64,000 nt of DNA, taken from NCBI GenBank assembly GCA_037349315.1, contig JBAIAC010000008.1:37484001-37548000 (forward strand), given 5' to 3'. Under the pieces are notes generated by a model that was given only the letters and a program-made list of their open reading frames with translations, made no database searches and was not told the DNA's origin. Positions 2,300 to 39,142 of this stretch are shown here, piece after piece. The stretch comes from Chelydra serpentina. Lineage: Eukaryota; Chordata; Testudines; Chelydridae. Numbering within the stretch: position 1 is the first letter of the stretch; each line of letters opens with the position of its first letter. The translations under genes and the position numbers were made by a program.

Positions 2300-2479
2300 G
2301 GGGCGGAGGGATAGCTCAGTGGTTTGAGCATTGGCCTGCTAAACCCAGGGTTTTGAGTTCAATCCTTGAGGGGGCCATTTGGGGATCTGGGGCAAAAATT
2401 GGGGATTGGTCCTGCTTTGATCAGGGGGTTGGACTAGATGACCTCCTAAGGTACCTTCCAACCCTGATATTCTATGATT
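2300..2479 (+). mobile_element. tRNA-derived SINE, turtle CryI type
   Basis: The 5' head reads GGATAGCTCAGTGGTTTGAG (A-box-like), followed by GAGTTCAATCCTTGAG (B-box-like): a tRNA-derived RNA polymerase III promoter. The body carries GGGGATTGGTCCTGCTTTGA, then GGACTAGATGACCTCC, and it ends in ATTCTATGATT, the CR1-type 3' tail. This head-plus-CR1-tail structure is the turtle polIII/SINE. The copy is near full length. A point change (GGTTTTGAG for the usual GGTTGTGAG) alters the B-box region. No clear target duplication was found. Confidence 0.93.
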
Positions 2480-4215: not shown

Positions 4216-6113
4216 AGTAGCAAAACTAAAAAGTTTGAGTGAGTTGCAATTGTCTCTGTCTACTGAGGTTGTCTAGAACTAACTGTCATATTCATTCAGT
4301 GAATTTGTGTTTAATATGCTGTACATTCTCATTCAAGAGAAATAGTTGAACATATTCATTTGAAAGACTGGAATGCATATTTTCATCCTGCTGTCTAGCA
4401 ATATTCTTATATGGTATAATAAATAAATATCCTTTCTTCTGCAATCTTTTCCATTTTATGTACTAAAGTAAATGTGATCCTTGAGAAAAGACATTTTATT
4501 TCCTAGCATCTTGGTTTGATAATATCTCTGTAGAGAATTAGCCACTTAAATGACCAAACCCTCTGGCATATGATAGAGCTGAGACTGGTAATTAACCCTA
4601 ATTGGATACTAATGATACAAGCATGGAGGGAGAGCTCATAGATCAGGCTCTGATATATCTGGTAGTCTGGAGACAGGTGCTTAATGTTGCAGGTTCTTTC
4701 CTTGTGGAGGACTTCTGTTGCAATAGAATGCTACCAATCACTTCTGCATTCTGTTAGGAAGGGCCACCTGAAGAAGACTCCATTTTAAAGCCCTTATAGT
4801 TAGAGGACCAGGCTAAAGAACAGATTTCAACTATGAGTCACTCATAGACTTGCCCCAAATTAGGGAAATGTTGGCCCAGAAGTCCCCCCCTTTCTGAAAC
4901 AGAGAGACTACTTTCAGGAAAAGTGACTCATTAGTTACAGTGGGGCTTGACGTTTTTGCAGATAGAGCACTGGCAAGAACCTATGAGGTAAATGTGACGG
5001 GGGAAACTCTGTAATGGTAACTAAATCACTATCTTTCACAGAACAATGACCTTTGACCTGATTCCCTTCAGGGAGTACACAGATACTCTCTGCATGTGTC
5101 TTGAAGTAAAAACAACAAATTTCAGAAGCACAGTATACCTACACTGTGGATCACTCCCTGCATCTAGGTAACCCCCATCTGAGGGGCACAGAGATATCAT
5201 AGACCTGGGACATACCAACTTCACAACTCAGAATCAAGTAGAATGTGCACATTATAACCCATTCTCCCTGCTGACAGGACTTGTCTGCTTGGGTAATTTG
5301 AAGCAGACCTGTGGCAGGCCTTTCTGTTTCTCCCAAAAACTGAGCTAAGCAGCTGCTCTGGTCTAGTCTGGCACCTGTTATCAAGGTAGATCTGACATGA
5401 CTTCCTCCTATAGGCCAATCTAGCTGAACTCCTTCTCTCCAGCATGTCTGGTCTGCACCTTCCTAGAACAATGTCAGATCTAGTCTAGCTCAGCTTCCCT
5501 GTTACAGCAAGTTCCCTCTGAGTATGTTATTCAATAGGGCATCAATCCTCCTTGTATGACAGCTTTACTTGGTACCCCTCACTCAAAAATCTCCATCCCC
5601 CTTCAGTCCTTCACAAGCTAGGGTAACCAGTGCAGGCAACATTCCTATTTCCCCAACATGCATAAGCTTATCCAAACAATCCAACGATGAAATAAACTGT
5701 GCCTATCACAATACAAATTAAAAAATAATGTTACGGCTACCAAAAATACCAGCTTCTTGAGAGCCCTAACAGTTCACTTTGTTGTTCTTTCTTCTCCAAT
5801 TAGAATGTATATATTTATAATACGTAATCTCTTCCATATATTAAAACTTTCAGTAACTGGTCCAACATTCCTTTATTAGACTGGAAACTCTAAGATGCAG
5901 TAACCACCTTTTATGCTGTCTGTACAACATCCAATACAGCTCTGATTGGGACACACAGACGCACTGTATTACAAATGATAAATAATGTTGATATTAACTC
6001 ATCCTCTCTCTAATCATGTGTTGCATAGATGACCCTGTGCCTGCTGACAGGGTGTGGGGGAGGGCACAACCGTAGAGCAGCTCTGGTCATGCCCCCACCC
6101 TCGGCAGCCCCTC
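4216..6113. other. anonymous non-coding DNA with a weak L2-like tail near 5860-5960
   Basis: No gene seen. Around 5870-5960 the text GACTGGAAACTCTAAGATGC, CTGTCTGTACAACATCCAAT, GTATTACAAATGATAAATAA has the word order of the L2-like tails elsewhere in the window but is much more diverged. The 5221-5445 frames overlap on both sides and show no domain. Confidence 0.4.
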
Positions 6114-11063: not shown

Positions 11064-11248
11064 GGGGGGGAGGGATAGCTCAGTGGTTTGAGCATTGGCC
11101 TGCTAAACACAGGGTTGTGAGTTCAATCCTTGAGGGGGCCATTTAGGGATCTGGGGCAAAAATTGGGGATTGGTCCTGCTTTGAGCAGGGGGTTGGACTA
11201 GATGACCTCCTAAGGTCCCTTCCAACTCTGATGATCTATGATTCTATG
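11064..11248 (+). mobile_element. tRNA-derived SINE, turtle CryI type
   Basis: Full-length copy: GGATAGCTCAGTGGTTTGAG head, GAGTTCAATCCTTGAG B-box region, GGGGATTGGTCCTGCTTTGA body, and a terminal ATGATTCTATG repeat. It is closely similar to the copies at 2300, 33482 and 38786. The 5' end runs into a G tract, so the exact start is uncertain by a few bases. Confidence 0.94.
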
Positions 11249-30998: not shown

Positions 30999-31654
30999 CC
31001 ACTTTGCTTCTACTTTTATCCAGAAAAGACAACAAACAGCAAAGTATTGGAGCTATTGGACTACATAGCAGAGCTCGGAATTAATAAATAAGGCATTGCG
31101 AATCTGTTCTGTTTTTCTTGCTTTCATTTAGGGTATCGTTTGAGTAAAAAACATCACATCTCTGTAGTGATTGAAAAAGTCTCATATTCAGACCTGTGAA
31201 AGGGTACGTCTACACTACAGAATTAGGTCGAAATTATAGAAGTCGATATATTAAAACCCGAATTTATGGAATCGATTGTGTGTGTCCCCACTAAAGAGCA
31301 TTAAGACCATGAGGTCAATTGACTGTGTCCACAGTAGCGAGACTAGCATCGACCTTCGAAGCATTGCATTGCGGGTAGCTATCCCACAGTTCCCGCAGTC
31401 TCCGCCGCCCATTGGAATTCTGGGTTGCGATCCCAAAGCCTGATGGGGCAGAAAACATTGTCGCTGGTGGTTCTGGGTACATGTCGTCAAGCCATCAAAC
31501 GTCCCTCCCTCCCTCCTTGAAAGCAATCTTTTTCGCGCCTTGTCTCCAGGGTTTCCATGTTTGCTACGGAAGCCTGCTCAGCTCACAATTACCGTACATC
31601 TCCAGCGTACGCCTGCATATTAGGTCTAGTGGGGATTCAGTCACGCTATAATAT

Positions 31655-31733
31655 GGGCAGAGGGATAGCTCAGTGTTCTGAGCGTTGGCCCGCTAAACCC
31701 GGGGTTGCGAGTTCAATCCTTGAGGGGGCCATT
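31655..31733 (+). mobile_element. SINE head (tRNA-like part only)
   Basis: GCAGAGGGATAGCTCAGTGT, then CCCGCTAAACCCGGGG and GCGAGTTCAATCCTTGAG: the tRNA-related half of the turtle SINE without the CR1 tail. It lies in the 5' region of the Harbinger element. Preceding bases (GGGATTCAG...GGGCAGAGG) resemble those before the second head at 32051, suggesting both arose by a local duplication. Confidence 0.8.
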
Positions 31734-31746
31734 CTGCCTGAGGCTG

Positions 31747-31953
31747 GTAGTCGCGGGACTGCACAGCATAAGCTCCTTGCCTTCTAGCTGCAGATGGTGC
31801 AATATGCCATAAATGGTTGTGGTTGCGGGACCATATAGCAGAAGCTCCTTGCCTTCTAGCTGCAGATGGTGCAATATGCCATAAATGGTTGTGGTCGTGG
31901 GACCATACAGCAGAAGCTCCTTGCCTTCTAGCTGCAGATCGTACAATATGCTT
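31747..31953. repeat. 72-bp tandem repeat, three copies
   Basis: Each unit contains AGCTCCTTGCCTTCTAGCTG, then CAGATGGTGCAATATGCCAT and AAATGGTTGTGG. Unit starts are spaced exactly 72 bp (31758, 31830, 31902). Because 72 is a multiple of three, the antisense frame (31946-31713) stays open and spells a 24-residue repeat; I regard that as incidental. The motif CCTTCTAGCTGCAGAT recurs inverted at 32145 and 32197. Confidence 0.9.
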
Positions 31954-32050
31954 GAAATTAGTGTGCTCCTGGCCAGCGGCCTTTGGTGTGGCTGGCCGGG
32001 GGTGCTTTTTTACGTTTTCTTTAAGGGAGATTCAGCACTGCCTGGAACAC

Positions 32051-32127
32051 GGGCAGAGGGATAGCTCAGCGGTATGAGCGTTGGCTCGCTAAACCCGGGG
32101 TTGCGAGTTCAATCCTTGAGGGGGTCA
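32051..32127 (+). mobile_element. SINE head (tRNA-like part only), second copy
   Basis: GGGCAGAGGGATAGCTCAGC, then GCTCGCTAAACCCGGGG and GCGAGTTCAATCCTTGAG, again stopping before the CR1-derived tail. It is closer to the head at 31655 than to full SINEs (both have CCCGGGGTTGCGAG rather than CCCAGGGTTGTGAG). Confidence 0.8.
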
Positions 32128-32144
32128 GGAGAGGTTATTGTACC

Positions 32145-32245
32145 ATCTGCAGCTAGAAGGAAAGGCGCCTAACCCTTGCTCACCGCATATTGTAGTATCT
32201 GCAGCTAGAAGGAAATGAGCCTAACCCTTGCTCCCCCCTCCCTCC
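32145..32245. repeat. 52-bp tandem duplication
   Basis: ATCTGCAGCTAGAAGGAAA followed by GCCTAACCCTTGCTC occurs at 32145 and again at 32197. The 5' half is the inverse complement of the motif in the 72-bp array at 31747-31953. Confidence 0.8.
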
Positions 32246-32384
32246 GTGAAAGCAACTGAGGGGGGAGCGAAAAATCCTTTTGCGCCTTTTTTCATGCGGG
32301 CGCCATATTGCTGACACCATTGTTATCCACCTGCCGCTTCTGCTCCCACTCTGCTGTCCTGCAAACAGCATACCAGGGAAAGCA

Positions 32385-33873
32385 TGGAGCACGATCAGAT
32401 CACCGCAACTGTTATCGCCATTATGAACGCACCACGCACATTGTCCAGGAGTATATGGAGAACGAGAACCGGGAGCTGCTAGAGCAACAGGAGGCGAGGA
32501 CGGGACAGCATCAGCCTGAGGACAGTGCTGAGGACATGGAGGCAGACCTCTCTCAAAAAAGGCCCCCCCGCAAGGTGGACATCATGGTGGTAATGGGGCT
32601 CGTTGATACAGTGGAACGCCGATTCTGGGCCCGGGAAACAAGCACAGACTGGTGGGACCACATAGTGCTGCAGGTCTGGGATGAATCCCAGTGGCTGTGA
32701 AACTTTCGCATGCGTAAGGGCACTTTCATGGAACTTTGTGAGTTGCTTTCCCCTGCCCTGAAGCACCAGAACACCAAGATGAGAGCAGCCCTCACAGTAG
32801 AGAAGCGACTGGCGATAGCCCTGTGGAAGCTTGCAACGCCAGACAGCTACCGGTCAGTCGCGAATCAATTCAGAGTGGGAAAATCTACAGTGGGGGCTGT
32901 TGTCATGCAAGTAGCCAGGGTGATCACCAAGCTGCTTGTACCAAGGGTTGTGAGTCTGGGAAATGTGCAGCTCATACTGGATGGCTTTGCAGCAATGGGG
33001 TTCCCGAACTGTGGAGGGGCGATAGACGGAACCCATATCCCTATCTTGGCACCGGACCACCAAGCCAGCGAGTACATAAACCGAAAGGGTTACTTTTCAA
33101 TAGTGCTGCAAGCACTGGTGGATCATAAGGGATGTTTCACCAACATCAACGTGGGATGGCCAGGAAAGGTACATGACGCTCGCATCTTCAGGAACTCTGG
33201 TCTGTTTCAGCTGCTGCACCAAGGGACTTTCTTCCCAGACCAGAAAATAACCGTTGGGGATGTTGAGATGCCCATAGTTATCCTTGGGGACCCAGCCTAC
33301 CCCTTAATGCCATGGCTCATGAAGCCATACACAGGTAGCCTGGACAGTAGTCAGGACCTTTTCAACTATAGGCTGAGCAAGTGCAGAATGGTGGTGGAAT
33401 GTGCATTTGGCCGTTTAAAAGCTCGCTGGCGAAGTTTATTAACTAGGTTAGATCTCAGCGAAAACAATATTCCCATTATTATGGGGGGAGGGATAGCTCA
33501 GTGGTTTGAGCATTGGCCTGCTAAACCCAGGGTTGTGAGTTCAATCCTTGAGGGGGCCATTTGGGGATCTGGGGCAAAAATTGGGGATTGGTCCTGCTTT
33601 GATCAGGGGGTTGGACTAGATGACCTACTAAGGTCCCTTCCAACCCTGATATTCTATGATTCTATTATTATTATTACTGCTTGCTGTGCGCTCCACAATA
33701 TCTGTGAGAGTAAGGGGGAGACGTTTATGGCGGGGTGGGAGGTTGAGGCAAATCGCCTGGCCACTGGTTATGTGCAGCCAGACACCAGGGCTATTACAAG
33801 AGTACAGCAGGGTGCGTTGCGCATCAGGGAAGCTTTGAAAACCAGTTTCATGAATGGCCAGAATGCTGTGTGA
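32385..33873 (+). pseudogene. Harbinger DDE transposase, interrupted
   Basis: The nuclease would cut at the element's ends and join them to new target DNA. The likely start is the ATG at 32385 (MEHDQIT). An indel near 32430 shifts into the frame carrying QEYMENENRELLEQQE. A TGA at 32698-32700 then stops it, and the same frame resumes for 387 codons from 32710. In that block: helix-turn-helix-like segment (YRSVANQFRVGKSTVGAVV, residues 47-65); first Asp in GAIDGTHI (D106); second in HDARIF (D156); third acidic residue in VVECAFGRLKARW (E230); a C-terminal CCALHNICE motif. A SINE (33482-33670) lies between the last two, in frame and without stops, adding about 63 residues. The catalytic triad is intact but the protein is interrupted. 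AATAAA follows at 33981. Confidence 0.9.
33482..33670 (+). mobile_element. SINE inserted inside the transposase gene
   Basis: Full turtle SINE: GGATAGCTCAGTGGTTTGAG head to ATTCTATGATTCTAT tail. Both junctions carry ATTATTA (33475-33481 and about 33664-33670), a likely 7-bp TSD. The inserted length (189 bp) is a multiple of three and the read-through frame has no stop, so the host frame stays open from one side to the other. Confidence 0.93.
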
Positions 33874-33980
33874 AAGTTCTGTTTTTCCCCAGTAATGAAA
33901 AGCCCCGCCCCTTCATTCACTCTACTTCCCTTTACCCAAACCGCCCTGCCCTCCCCCCCTCGGTCACCGCTTGCAGAGGA

Positions 33981-34020
33981 AATAAAGTCATTGTTGCTTA
34001 AAAATCATGCATTCTTTATT
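33981..34020. terminator. convergent polyadenylation signals
   Basis: Plus-strand AATAAA at 33981-33986 serves the transposase (108 bp after its stop). Minus-strand AATAAA (plus text TTTATT, 34015-34020) serves the Myb-like gene (about 160 bp after its stop). The signals face each other 28 bp apart, so the two transcripts probably overlap at their 3' ends. Confidence 0.7.
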
Positions 34021-34073
34021 AATTCGTAAAACACAGAGGGGGAACTATGGGGGTAACTGACACAGTCTCCCGG

Positions 34074-34152
34074 GATAGGTGGTGGAGGAAGGGAAGCACC
34101 AGGATGGGTGGTGGAGGAAGGGAAGCACCAGGATGGGTGGTGGAGGAGGGGA
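34074..34152. repeat. 29-bp tandem repeat, about 2.7 copies
   Basis: Unit GGTGGTGGAGGAAGGGAAGC + ACCAGGATG, in the predicted 3' UTR of the Myb-like gene. Confidence 0.88.
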
Positions 34153-34180
34153 TGAGGGAAGGACAAGGACACACAGCACT

Positions 34181-36196
34181 TTAAAACTTATTGAATGCCA
34201 GCCCTTTCTTGCTTGGACTGTTCTCTTGGCTTGAGTGGCTGGGTGCACGGAGGCCACCCAAACGCGTTCTTGGGCGTCTCGGGGATGAGGTTATGGGACT
34301 CGGGAAGGAGGGCTGTTGGTTACACAGGGGCTGTAGCGGCGGTCTGTGCTCAGGCGGCCTTTCCTGAACCCTATGCCTGTCCTCAGCCATAAGCCGGAGG
34401 ATTTCCGTTTGATCCTCCAGTAGCCTCAGAATTGCATCCTGCCTTCTCTCTGCACACTGACGCCACCTACTCTCTTCATCCCGCCGCTGTCTCTCTTCAG
34501 CCCGCCAGTCATTGTCTTCAGCACGCCACTTGTCTGCGCGATCAAATTCTGCCTTCCTGGACTCCGACAGTGTCTGCCTCCACGCATTCTGCTGGGCAGC
34601 CTCAGTGTGGGAGGATTCCATGAGTTCTGAGAACATATCGTCTCGATTCCTTTTTTTTTTACTTCTAATCTTCGCTAGCCTCTGGGACGGTGATGAAAGG
34701 GGTGGCGTTGAAACATTTGCAGCTGCGGGAGGAAACAAACGGGAGAGGAGTACTTTAAAAGACACATATTAGAGAACAATGCTCCAAACATTACATATCA
34801 CATGTGCATTTGGTCCAAGGTTGCACTGTGCCTCTTATATTGAGGGTCTGCTGGTTTGCTGTGAGAGATCACACAAGCAGGTCCGGCGGGCAACAGAATT
34901 CAGCTTGCAGACAGCCATGGTAAGACACTCTATAGGCTTCTTGAAGCTTCACAACATGTGGGATTGTTTTCAAACAGCAACCCCCTCATTTCCCATAACA
35001 AACATCCCGTGGGCTGGCAATTTAAAACAAACAGGTTGGCAATTGAAAAGTGAGGGGCGGCGGTTTTCGGGTTAACATGCAGCGCGAACCTAATCTCCCC
35101 CTCCCCCCCACACAGACACACATCCAAGATGTTTGCTGTACCCCCTCCCCCCACCGCGTGGGTCACAGCGGGAAAGATTTCCGTTCAGCCACAGGCAAAC
35201 AGCCCAGCAGGGACGGAGCCCCTCTGAATGCCCCCTTAATAAAATTCCCCTATTTCAACCAGGTGACCATGAATGATATCACTCTTCTGAGGATAACACA
35301 GACAGATAAAGAACGGATGTTGCTTGACTGCCAGCAAAAACCGGGACCATACGCCGCCATGCTTTGCAAAGCACTGATTCCAGACTACGTGCTGCTGGCC
35401 TGGCGTGGTAGAGTGTGTTACCACGGAGCACAGGATATGGCTGCCCTCCCCAGAAACCTTTTGCACAGGCTTTGGGAGCACATCCAGGAGATCTTTCTGG
35501 AGATGTCCCCGGAGGATTTCTGCTCCATCCCCGAACATGTTAACAGACTTTTCCAGTAGCTGTAGCTGTACTGGCCATGAATTAATCATTAAACACGCTT
35601 GCTTATAAAACATGTATTAATTTAACAGAGGTACACTCACCAGAGGTCCCTTCTCCTGCATCGAGCACGCCTTGGGAGGGTTCGAACTGTACTGGCTCCA
35701 GGGTGACAAAGAGTTCCTGGCTGTCGGGGAAAAGGGCTTCTCCACTTCCTTGCTGTGTCTGTGTGCTATTTTCAGCATCATTATCATCATCATGCTCCTC
35801 TGTGGGTTCTGATGATCCACATACGGAGTCAAACCACATGGGAGGGTCTGTGCTGGCTGCACCTCCTAGAATGGCATGCAGCTCATCATAGAAGCGGCAT
35901 GTCTGGGGCTGTGACCCAGAGCGGCTGTTTGCATCTCTGGTTTTTTGGTAGGCTTGCCTGAGCTCCTTAATTTTCACGCAGCACTGTTGCGCGTCCCTGT
36001 TGTAGCCTCTGTCCTGCATGCCCTTGGAGACTTTGGCATATGTCTTGGCATTTCTTCTTTTGGACCCTAGCTCTGCTAGCTCGGTTTCGTCTCCCCAAAC
36101 AGCGATCAGATCGAGTACCTCACGCTCGGTCCATGCTGGAGCTCGTCTTCGGTTCTGGGACTCCATCATGGTCACCTCTGCTGATGAGATCTGCAC
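34181..36196 (-). CDS. Harbinger Myb/SANT-like DNA-binding protein, two exons
   Basis: In PIF/Harbinger elements a Myb/SANT-like protein binds the element's ends and helps bring the transposase into the nucleus. Exon 1 runs 36196-35641 and ends TCTG|GTGAGT; exon 2 runs 34722-34181 after a pyrimidine-rich tract and CCCGCAG. The intron (34723-35640, 918 bp) is phase 1. Joined, the frame is open for 365 codons; a start at the paired methionines at 36169/36166 is equally likely. Residues ~12-115 form a trihelix-type Myb/SANT domain (RRRAPAWTEREVLDLIAVWG; KRRNAKTYAKVSKGMQDRG; CCVKIKELRQAYQKTRD; FYDELHAILGG). An acidic linker follows (EEHDDDNDAE). Exon 2 encodes a basic patch (RSKKKRNRDD) and a charged, helical, probably coiled-coil stretch (WRAEDNDWRAEERQRRDEES). 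No lesions are visible. The identity is secure; activity is inferred. Confidence 0.87.
34917..35559 (+). CDS. unknown small gene nested in the Myb intron
   Basis: I do not recognise this protein. It lies wholly inside the Myb-like gene's intron, on the opposite strand. A start codon in strong context (AGCCATG, 34917-34919) is followed at once by a donor (GTAAGA, 34920). An acceptor after a pyrimidine-rich stretch (TTTCAACCAG, ending 35262) joins GTGACCATGAATGATATC in the same frame (phase 0, 343-bp intron). The spliced product is 99 residues, beginning MVTMNDITLL. Unspliced, translation could start at the ATG at 35269 for 96 residues. Features: charged N-terminal half (TQTDKERMLLDCQQK), a central hydrophobic segment (YVLLAWRGRVCYHG), and a C-terminal helix-like region (LHRLWEHIQEIFLEMSPEDF). 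No signal peptide or known motif. ATTAAA at 35588-35593, 29 bp after the stop, is a possible polyadenylation signal. The frame is undamaged although the neighbouring transposase is broken. Function unknown. Confidence 0.6.
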
Positions 36197-36199
36197 TCA

Positions 36200-36549
36200 C
36201 CTGCAGCTCACCACGCTGGCCAAACAGGAAATGAAATTCAAAAGTTCGCGGGGCTTTTCCTGTCTACCTGGGAGGAGCATTCGAGCTCAGACCGCTGTCC
36301 AGAGCGGTCAGCTGTTGCACCGTGGGATAGATTTAGGAGGCCAATACTGTCGAATTGCGTCCTCACTAAGCCTCCATCGATTCGGCAATATCGCTTTAAG
36401 CGCTAATTCCCTCGTTGGGGGTGGAGTGGCGAGATCGATTTTAAGAGCCCTAGAAGTCGATGTTAAGGGCTTCGTCGTGTGGATGGGTGCACGGATCAAT
36501 CGGAATATCACTAATAAATTCGACCTAAACTTGTAGTGTAGACCAGGGC
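36200..36549. repeat. right sub-terminal region of the Harbinger element
   Basis: Non-coding 350 bp upstream of the Myb-like gene, CpG-rich, probably holding its promoter (no clear TATA box) and the transposase or Myb binding sites. It contains repeated ATCGAT/TCGATT-type words and ends with the right inverted repeat. The plus frame 36018-36536 crossing it is a shadow of the Myb exon. Confidence 0.6.
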
Positions 36550-36552
36550 AAA

Positions 36553-37877: not shown

Positions 37878-39142
37878 TGTGACCCGTGGTGCCTGGCGAA
37901 GCCCTAACTGAAAATGCCAAGGTCAGAGAAGGCTTCAAAAAGGAGAGCAGAGTCTTCCCAAACTGGTGGTTAACACTGAGGTTAAACTCACCAACCAGTC
38001 AAAAACTACGCTGATTCCCCACACTGGTTATCAAGAAGCTGAAAAAAGAAATCACACAGCCCCCTGGATTGCATTCCAGTTCTCTGGCTCCCAATCAGCA
38101 CATAGGTCCAGTACAGTTAGAAGTTATTTAAAAGCTCTGATGACTATACAAAATGTTCTTCTGAGCCCAAAGGGTCAGCCACGTTACCAGGTCAATATTA
38201 GTTTGGATCTTACCCAAAATACCACACTGCCAGCCAATCCTTTAGTGTCTAAAACTAAATGTTTATTACAAACAAAAAAGAAAGACGAAGAAGAGAGTTG
38301 TTAAATGATAAAGCACTCAGATACACATACGGAGACTTCAAATTCCATATACCTGGTTCTTAGCAGTATTGGAGAGTTTGCAGGCCAGAAATTCCCTCTG
38401 GAACACATCCACAGCCTTGGATGGGTCATTCCGTCCTCTGTTCAGAACTTCAGTTTGTAGAAAAGTTACTCCAGAGGTAAGAAGCAGGATTGAAGACAGA
38501 ATGGAGAAGATGTAGCTGCCTTTTATATTCTTTTGCCATGTGGCTTGTACTTTCTGTGTCCCAAACACAAGCTTGACAGCACATGGCATGGAAAAAACGT
38601 GTAGTCCCCTGTACATAGGCATGCCCCTACAAGCCCTACTGATTCATAAGGTGTTACCTCTGTCTCCTTTCAATGGGTTCACCGTACAACTGATGACTCT
38701 TGATGGGCCATCAAACAGGCTTAGAGCTGATGGCAATCTGTCTGGGAATGTCACCCAGAAACACAGCACAAGTTTTGAAATACAGATCATAGAATCATAG
38801 AATATCAGGGTTGGAAGGGACCTTAGGAGGTCATCTAGTCCAACCCCCTGCTCAAAGCAGGATCAATCCCCAATTTTTGCCCCAGGTCCCTAAATGGCCC
38901 CCTCAAGGATTGAACTCACAACCCTGGGTTTAGCAGGCCAATGCTCAAACCACTGAGCCATCCCTCCCCAGATATCTGTAACTCACAATACGAAGATGAT
39001 GCAAACATAGAAACAAGATTATCATACTTGGAAAATCATAACATTTTCACAGATACCTTACATGGCATATCTGGCTTGCAATTTTATAATATTGGTATCG
39101 ACAATATCATAAAGTGTCTCCCATATTCCATACAGTGTCACA
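37878..39142 (-). mobile_element. solo LTR with a nested SINE
   Basis: Plus text opens TGTGACCCG and closes CAGTGTCACA, so on minus it runs TGTGACACTG...CGGGTCACA. Flanks are CCTAG (37873-37877) and CTTAG (39143-39147): a 5-bp TSD with one mismatch. On minus: TATA (ATATAAAAGG, 38519-38529), then AATAAA (38262-38267), the normal U3-R order. A SINE (38786-38970) is inserted in U3. No internal retroelement genes adjoin. The 112-codon plus frame at 37966-38304 is antisense noise. Confidence 0.8.
38786..38970 (-). mobile_element. tRNA-derived SINE nested in the LTR
   Basis: Reverse complement of the turtle SINE: plus text starts ATCATAGAATCATAGAATAT (CR1 tail) and ends CACTGAGCCATCCCTCCCC (tRNA head). 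Being inside the LTR, it is younger than the LTR insertion. A short CAGAT repeat at both edges may be the TSD. Confidence 0.93.

Follow-up and report, generated by a model that had tools for sequence, protein, structure and literature searches.

A probable third gene nested antisense in the Myb-like intron of a turtle PIF/Harbinger transposon lineage

This locus raises the question of whether a PIF/Harbinger transposon of Chelydra serpentina carries a third protein-coding gene, in addition to those for its transposase and its Myb-like protein. For described elements, two proteins of these kinds suffice in cells. Two genes are given as the mark of known PIF elements in passages of PMC9710019, and two ORFs as the plan of typical or most elements in parts of PMC9179366 and PMC4482050; for the zebrafish and rice elements, both proteins are stated to be required, and the zebrafish pair to interact (passages of PMC9710019 and PMC9179366). 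We analysed a stretch of 64,000 nucleotides (the window; contig JBAIAC010000008.1, positions 37,484,001 to 37,548,000), in which a sequence-only reading had described a short intact frame antisense within the intron of the Myb-like gene and had proposed that it is a real gene of the element. All the relatives compared come from the same 2.28-Gb genome as the window. The features are as follows, in window coordinates (here and below, a slash within a motif marks an exon-intron junction).

31202..36549, no strand assigned: PIF/Harbinger element, 5348 bp, with ends GGGTACGTCTACACTACA ... TGTAGTGTAGACCAGGGC
32385..33873, plus strand: transposase gene, damaged in the window; Pfam DDE_Tnp_4 (PF13359), E=1.4e-33, residues 107-257
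34181..34722, minus strand: Myb/SANT-like gene, exon 2 with stop; acceptor TTTCCTCCCGCAG; relative in the distant locus L067 37% identical
34723..35640, minus strand: intron of the Myb-like gene (GTGAGT...CCCGCAG), host of the third gene on the opposite strand
34795..34916, plus strand: probable promoter and 5' UTR of the third gene, with CACATGTG and the TATA-like TTATATTGAG; the promoter role is putative
34917..34919, plus strand: third gene, exon 1, the coding part of which is the start codon ATG alone; donor GTAAGA directly after
34920..35262, plus strand: third gene, intron of 343 bp; acceptor ...CAACCAG ending at 35262
35263..35559, plus strand: third gene, exon 2, 98 codons and TAG (35557-35559); dN/dS 0.27-0.38 against 22 distant copies (alignment A1)
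35588..35593, plus strand: ATTAAA poly(A) signal of the third gene, 29 bp past the stop
35641..36169, minus strand: Myb/SANT-like gene, exon 1; PF13837 (Myb_DNA-bind_4), E=5.4e-21; donor G/GTGAGT, join in frame

The host element has the features by which PIF/Harbinger transposons are recognized, namely a DDE_Tnp_4 transposase, a second gene of the Myb/SANT type, and TIRs with a 3-bp TSD. In the window, the TIR arms lie at 31208-31237 and 36514-36543, and the TSD is AAA (31199-31201 and 36550-36552). The ends were readable in 19 of the 21 elements tried (the window and 20 copies), and the 3-bp TSD was exact in 13 of these 19. Nine of the exact TSDs were TNA, including five of the TWA form given for PIF/Harbinger in a passage of PMC4482050, and the remainder were AAA, TGT, ATA and CTA. 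The close copies are 97-99% identical to the window over the third gene and 10 of 20 have an uninterrupted stop-to-stop transposase frame (454-457 codons), which suggests, as far as mobility can be read from sequence alone, that the family has been active recently.

The transposase gene has three lesions in the window. Two extra bases near 32428 are absent from all 19 copies covering the site, the TGA at 32698 is also found in 1 of 19 other copies, and of the 20 close copies, 18 retain both flanks of the SINE at about 33483-33666 and none of these has the insertion (the stretch around this site is missing from L011 and L026). This SINE is tRNA-headed and provides a stop-free read-through in the transposase, and copies 96-98% identical to it lie elsewhere in the window (2300-2479, 11065-11247 and 38786-38969). 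The 5' leader of the element contains two tRNA-like SINE heads (31649-31733 and 32056-32124), with about 89-90% identity to the SINE in the transposase, and about three repeats of a 72-bp unit (31747-31951); these heads and repeats look as if SINE pieces had been captured by the transposon. A transposase search of the genome, in which 147 of 22978 candidates were scored, gave an identical score (571.4 bits) for dozens of copies. Most of these have an open frame of 484 codons, and together the scores and frames point to a burst of this transposase family in the recent past.

The anatomy proposed for the third frame proved correct to the base: ATG/GTAAGA, the acceptor at 35262, the continuation GTG ACC ATG AAT, the 99 residues and the ATTAAA 29 bp on. 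Its antisense location within the Myb-like intron was likewise confirmed, and the joined Myb exons (intron 35640-34723) give an uninterrupted frame of 356 residues. We infer from these signals that the third gene is transcribed and spliced as drawn. Two arguments of the sequence-only reading stood only in part. The third frame is indeed undamaged and the transposase does have three lesions, but this difference carries little weight as evidence, since the Myb frame shows no damage either and the third frame persists in every one of the 20 close copies. Similarly, the sequence does contain an intron immediately after the ATG, but an on/off switch of translation by splicing does not follow from it: a second in-frame ATG is present at codon 4, and the start-codon intron may therefore alter only three N-terminal residues. 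Translation would yield about 99 residues from the first ATG and 96 if it began at the second. The length of the frame is by itself unremarkable: when 34733-35641 was shuffled 2000 times with dinucleotides preserved, 498 of the shuffles had an ATG frame of at least 96 aa on either strand (263 for the plus strand alone), although the 170-aa stop-to-stop frame is rarer (50/2000). The case for the gene rests on related copies.

The 20 close copies, fetched from 39 other places listed in the genome, all have the third frame intact and all retain ATG/GTAAGA. The changes among them amount to 27 nonsynonymous and 17 synonymous (a per-copy count, in which shared variants are counted repeatedly), which is close to neutral, like decay without selection. 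These copies were selected for similarity and are near-neutral, and older relatives were therefore needed for the test.

Such relatives were provided by a profile search with the Myb domain, in which 150 of 12922 candidates were scored and which returned 30 loci that were not chosen for the third gene. These distant loci belong to another Harbinger clade, with Myb exon 1 about 55-61% identical to the window over most of its length and three shorter matches at 72-74%. A relative of the third gene was found antisense in the same Myb intron at 28 of the 30 loci, and the two others are truncated (L038 ends inside the Myb exon and L042 just at the third gene). Other copies of the transposon thus do not lack the frame, as had been anticipated for a genuine element gene: it is present in these 28 Myb-picked loci, in 4/4 transposase-picked copies and in 20/20 close copies. 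Protein identity to the window is 59-70% in the 26 distant copies that align in one piece. The frame is uninterrupted in 22 of the 28 distant copies, two of which have small in-frame deletions; the six interrupted copies comprise four near-copies with one common TAG and two frame-shifted sequences. In a longer distant stretch (L067), all three genes are present in unchanged order, and the transposase core is 79% identical to that of the window.

A search of the genome with the third gene itself, in which scoring was limited to the best 150 of 13271 candidates, gave only near-identical copies of the element among these 150. The first-look candidate counts were similar for the third gene (13271) and the Myb domain (12922), with 150 scored in each case, and the other Myb type (PF13873) gave 15 matches from 38 candidates, all scored. 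When the first 40 of the 147 transposase places were compared with the 150 listed third-gene places, 13 of the 40 were matched, and the four fetched from the 27 unmatched places all contained an uninterrupted third gene (92-95% identical).

Comparison of the window with the 22 uninterrupted distant copies (NG86; the six interrupted copies were left out) yielded dN/dS values of 0.27-0.38 (median 0.32) at dS 0.57-0.80, although these 22 comparisons are not independent, because one long branch is common to all of them. Among the 22 distant copies themselves, 139 of 231 pairs had dS >0.15, and all 139, which likewise have branches in common, gave ratios below 1 (median 0.30). The dN/dS below 1 predicted between copies of a real gene is therefore observed between lineages, whereas the young close copies alone are near neutral. 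A codon model for 23 sequences, with kappa fixed at 2, gave lnL values of -1569.5 (omega 0.2), -1558.2 (0.3), -1555.7 (0.5) and -1571.4 (1); it thus prefers an omega between 0.3 and 0.5, and the fit falls by about 16 log units from omega 0.5 to omega 1. Dead copies contribute terminal branches to this data set, which should bias the estimate upwards. The observed amino acid identity of 59-70% compares with the 33-53% expected from simulations of neutral drift, of which 164 to 449 of 5000 stayed stop-free, and the mean numbers of differences by codon position were 19/17/35. For three pairs, the other reading frames gave ratios of 1.1-2.3, except for the antisense -1 frame (0.34-0.46), the ratio of which is low because the wobble position is shared; that frame contains stops. 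A 126-aa frame on the minus strand was rejected as a gene, with stops in each minus frame of the three distant copies tested.

In the one pair compared (the window and L051/L067, one element), dS is similar for the third gene (0.57) and the transposase core (0.61), and the third gene therefore appears to have moved together with the element. As a separate observation, when the window is compared with L037-L066, dS is much greater for Myb exon 1 (about 1.1-2.4) than for the third gene (0.57-0.80), possibly reflecting recombination between lineages or a tail that is harder to align. The Myb dN/dS comparison comprised 21 rows (L060 has none), with stop-containing stretches skipped and one saturated value kept outside the median.

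The boundaries of the third-gene intron are conserved across the distant copies and its interior is variable, in agreement with the intron initially drawn. ATG/GTAAGC is present in 19 of the 28 distant copies. Seven of the other nine have an altered start or donor site (ATA/GTAAGC in L043; ATG/GTCAGC in L054, L056 and L057; ATA/GTCAGC in L055; ATG/ATAAGC in L061; ATG/GTAAAC in L039), the junction is deleted in L053, and the site was looked for but not found in L041. The acceptor CAG and the initial G of exon 2 are present in 28/28 copies, as is ATG at codon 4, and codon 3 is ACC in 27/28, with CCC in three of the four late-fetched, transposase-picked copies. About 25 nt 5' of the acceptor, the four distant copies inspected all have TACTAA, a possible branch site, as do three late-fetched copies (the remaining one of that set is cut at this point); the window itself has TTAATA at this position. 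Among the 19 distant copies in which the donor is exact, the intron ranges from 291 to 701 bp. In L068, it contains a GC-rich tandem array (5064-5456; 4.9 copies of an 80-bp unit) with near-palindromic stretches, possibly a candidate protein-binding array.

Conservation against the distant clade, scored in 20-bp blocks, averaged about 0.63 (0.52-0.79) over 34740-34919 and about 0.39 (0.15-0.68) over the intron interior (34940-35239). Three upstream blocks reach 0.74-0.79, and CACATGTG and the TATA-like TTATATTGAG are among the upstream blocks. AATAAA lies between the third-gene stop and the Myb donor in 21/21 distant rows, and ATTAAA takes this place in the window. With a conserved upstream block and a poly(A) signal, the third gene therefore seems to own a promoter and a terminator that fit into its neighbour's intron. 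The unit would consist of the upstream block, a first exon in which only the ATG is coding, a short variable intron, the 98-codon exon 2 and its own poly(A) signal.

The predicted product has about 99 residues (11.6 kDa, pI 6.0), and 38 of the 98 columns of alignment A1 are invariant. No family match was obtained in a Pfam search for any of 21 members, no relative was found in PDB sequence searches (one weak row with E 1.8, and none in a second search), and none was confirmed in viral contigs and prokaryote genomes. The AlphaFold model produced without an alignment was poor (pLDDT 52.7), with helices at 13-25, 29-37, 64-79 and 91-96. TFIIH p8/TTDA appeared among the top Foldseek rows, but with a poor model, rmsd >10 and a probability <=0.10, this row is meaningless. 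Descent from the transposase or the Myb protein of the element was also rejected, as there is no similarity to either.

The occurrence of the gene in the distant clade, the dN/dS of 0.27-0.38 and the conserved splice signals support the proposal that the third frame is a real element gene. It is conserved in place, evolves under purifying selection and co-occurs with the transposase and Myb genes, and we consider it likely that this PIF/Harbinger lineage has a true third gene in the form of a separate small antisense transcription unit within the Myb intron, the protein of which has been kept in at least two long-separated clades. As it has been retained with the transposase and Myb genes in two clades, the simplest reading is that of a third trans-acting component that aids or tunes transposition. 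There is about an even chance that the product is a partner that assists or regulates the transposase-Myb complex; the steps at which it might act include entry into the nucleus, binding of the element ends and the choice of target. If two proteins suffice in cells, the third may be a lineage adaptation, either to the transposition complex or to host silencing.

The second of these directions corresponds to an explanation that also accepts the gene as real. The product could be a small host-directed factor blunting the silencing of the element (piRNA, KRAB or chromatin), and the promoter-like block, if it functions as such, would permit expression apart from the transposase. However, the product has no recognizable domain, and a dN/dS of about 0.3 with 38/98 invariant columns suits a conserved partner more than an arms-race protein, so we regard this role as unlikely.

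The capture of a BEN-domain protein by the transposon was considered because, as judged by eye, the pattern of hydrophobic residues in the product and its C-terminal 'I..hVNrlF' are reminiscent of BEN domains (BANP, NACC1, BEND3, Insensitive). However, profile comparison and HMM search fail: Pfam matched 0 of 21 members, the BEN model gave 13 places from 22 candidates in the genome, far below the copy number of the third gene, and hhalign returned a probability of 0.08 for the third gene against BEN (a profile of three sequences), with 83 for a BEN-BEN control and values of up to 3.2 in 100 column shuffles. The BEN identity is thus rejected at the sequence level, and such an origin appears very improbable.

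The nested antisense layout and the poly(A) signal near the Myb donor would also fit an antisense transcript through the Myb intron that matters in itself, by interference with Myb or as double-stranded RNA, with the frame as a by-product. Selection is seen at the codon level, however (19/17/35 by codon position; dN/dS about 0.3), and the intron interior is poorly conserved; this explanation is largely refuted by the protein-level constraint, and we would give it hardly any credence. A chance frame, still open because the copies are young, is practically negligible, since the frequency of such frames in the intron shuffles (498/2000) and the near-neutral decay among close copies are outweighed by conservation, with the same splice signals, in a clade at dS 0.57-0.80 and dN/dS about 0.3.

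The preferred reading, a true third gene, can be set against described elements. Zebrafish Harbinger3_DR and plant PIF share with the window element the DDE_Tnp_4 transposase, a Myb_DNA-bind_4 gene, TIRs and a 3-bp TSD. They are described with two genes, whereas the window element does not keep to the two-gene-only plan: it has both usual genes and a third, selected one, antisense in the Myb intron. That plan is how the papers describe such elements, and transposition does not presuppose it. According to passages of PMC4482050, NuwaI, NuwaII and Pangu, of the PHIS superfamily, likewise combine the two-ORF plan with a DDE transposase; the TSDs of NuwaI are CWG, whereas 9 of the 13 exact TSDs in the window family are TNA, and the description in those passages makes no mention of a third gene. 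In ISL2EU, an accessory gene (a YqaJ exonuclease) lies next to a related transposase (passages of PMC9179366 and PMC4482050), a likeness to the window element; the accessory protein is different, and the window element holds a Myb gene plus the third gene. We found no description of a third or additional ORF in Harbinger in the open-licence literature, and the ORF3 or third-ORF wording in passages of PMC5718144 and PMC7998251 concerns LTR elements. Repbase is cited as holding turtle and crocodilian Harbingers, and a frame of this kind may already be present in its Harbinger entries.

PIF/Harbinger elements are described as differing from other DNA transposons in their two genes, both needed for transposition, and a conserved third gene would make this picture incomplete for the lineage of the window element. 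We consider the odds evenly balanced that the whole Harbinger lineage, with probably thousands of copies, is a three-component system, in which a third protein of an undescribed family, encoded by a gene nested antisense in that of its partner and with an intron directly after its ATG, is needed for transposition or tunes it. The third gene would represent a new short protein family and would add a candidate for host domestication, one that is invisible to domain searches, given that none of the 21 members has a Pfam match.
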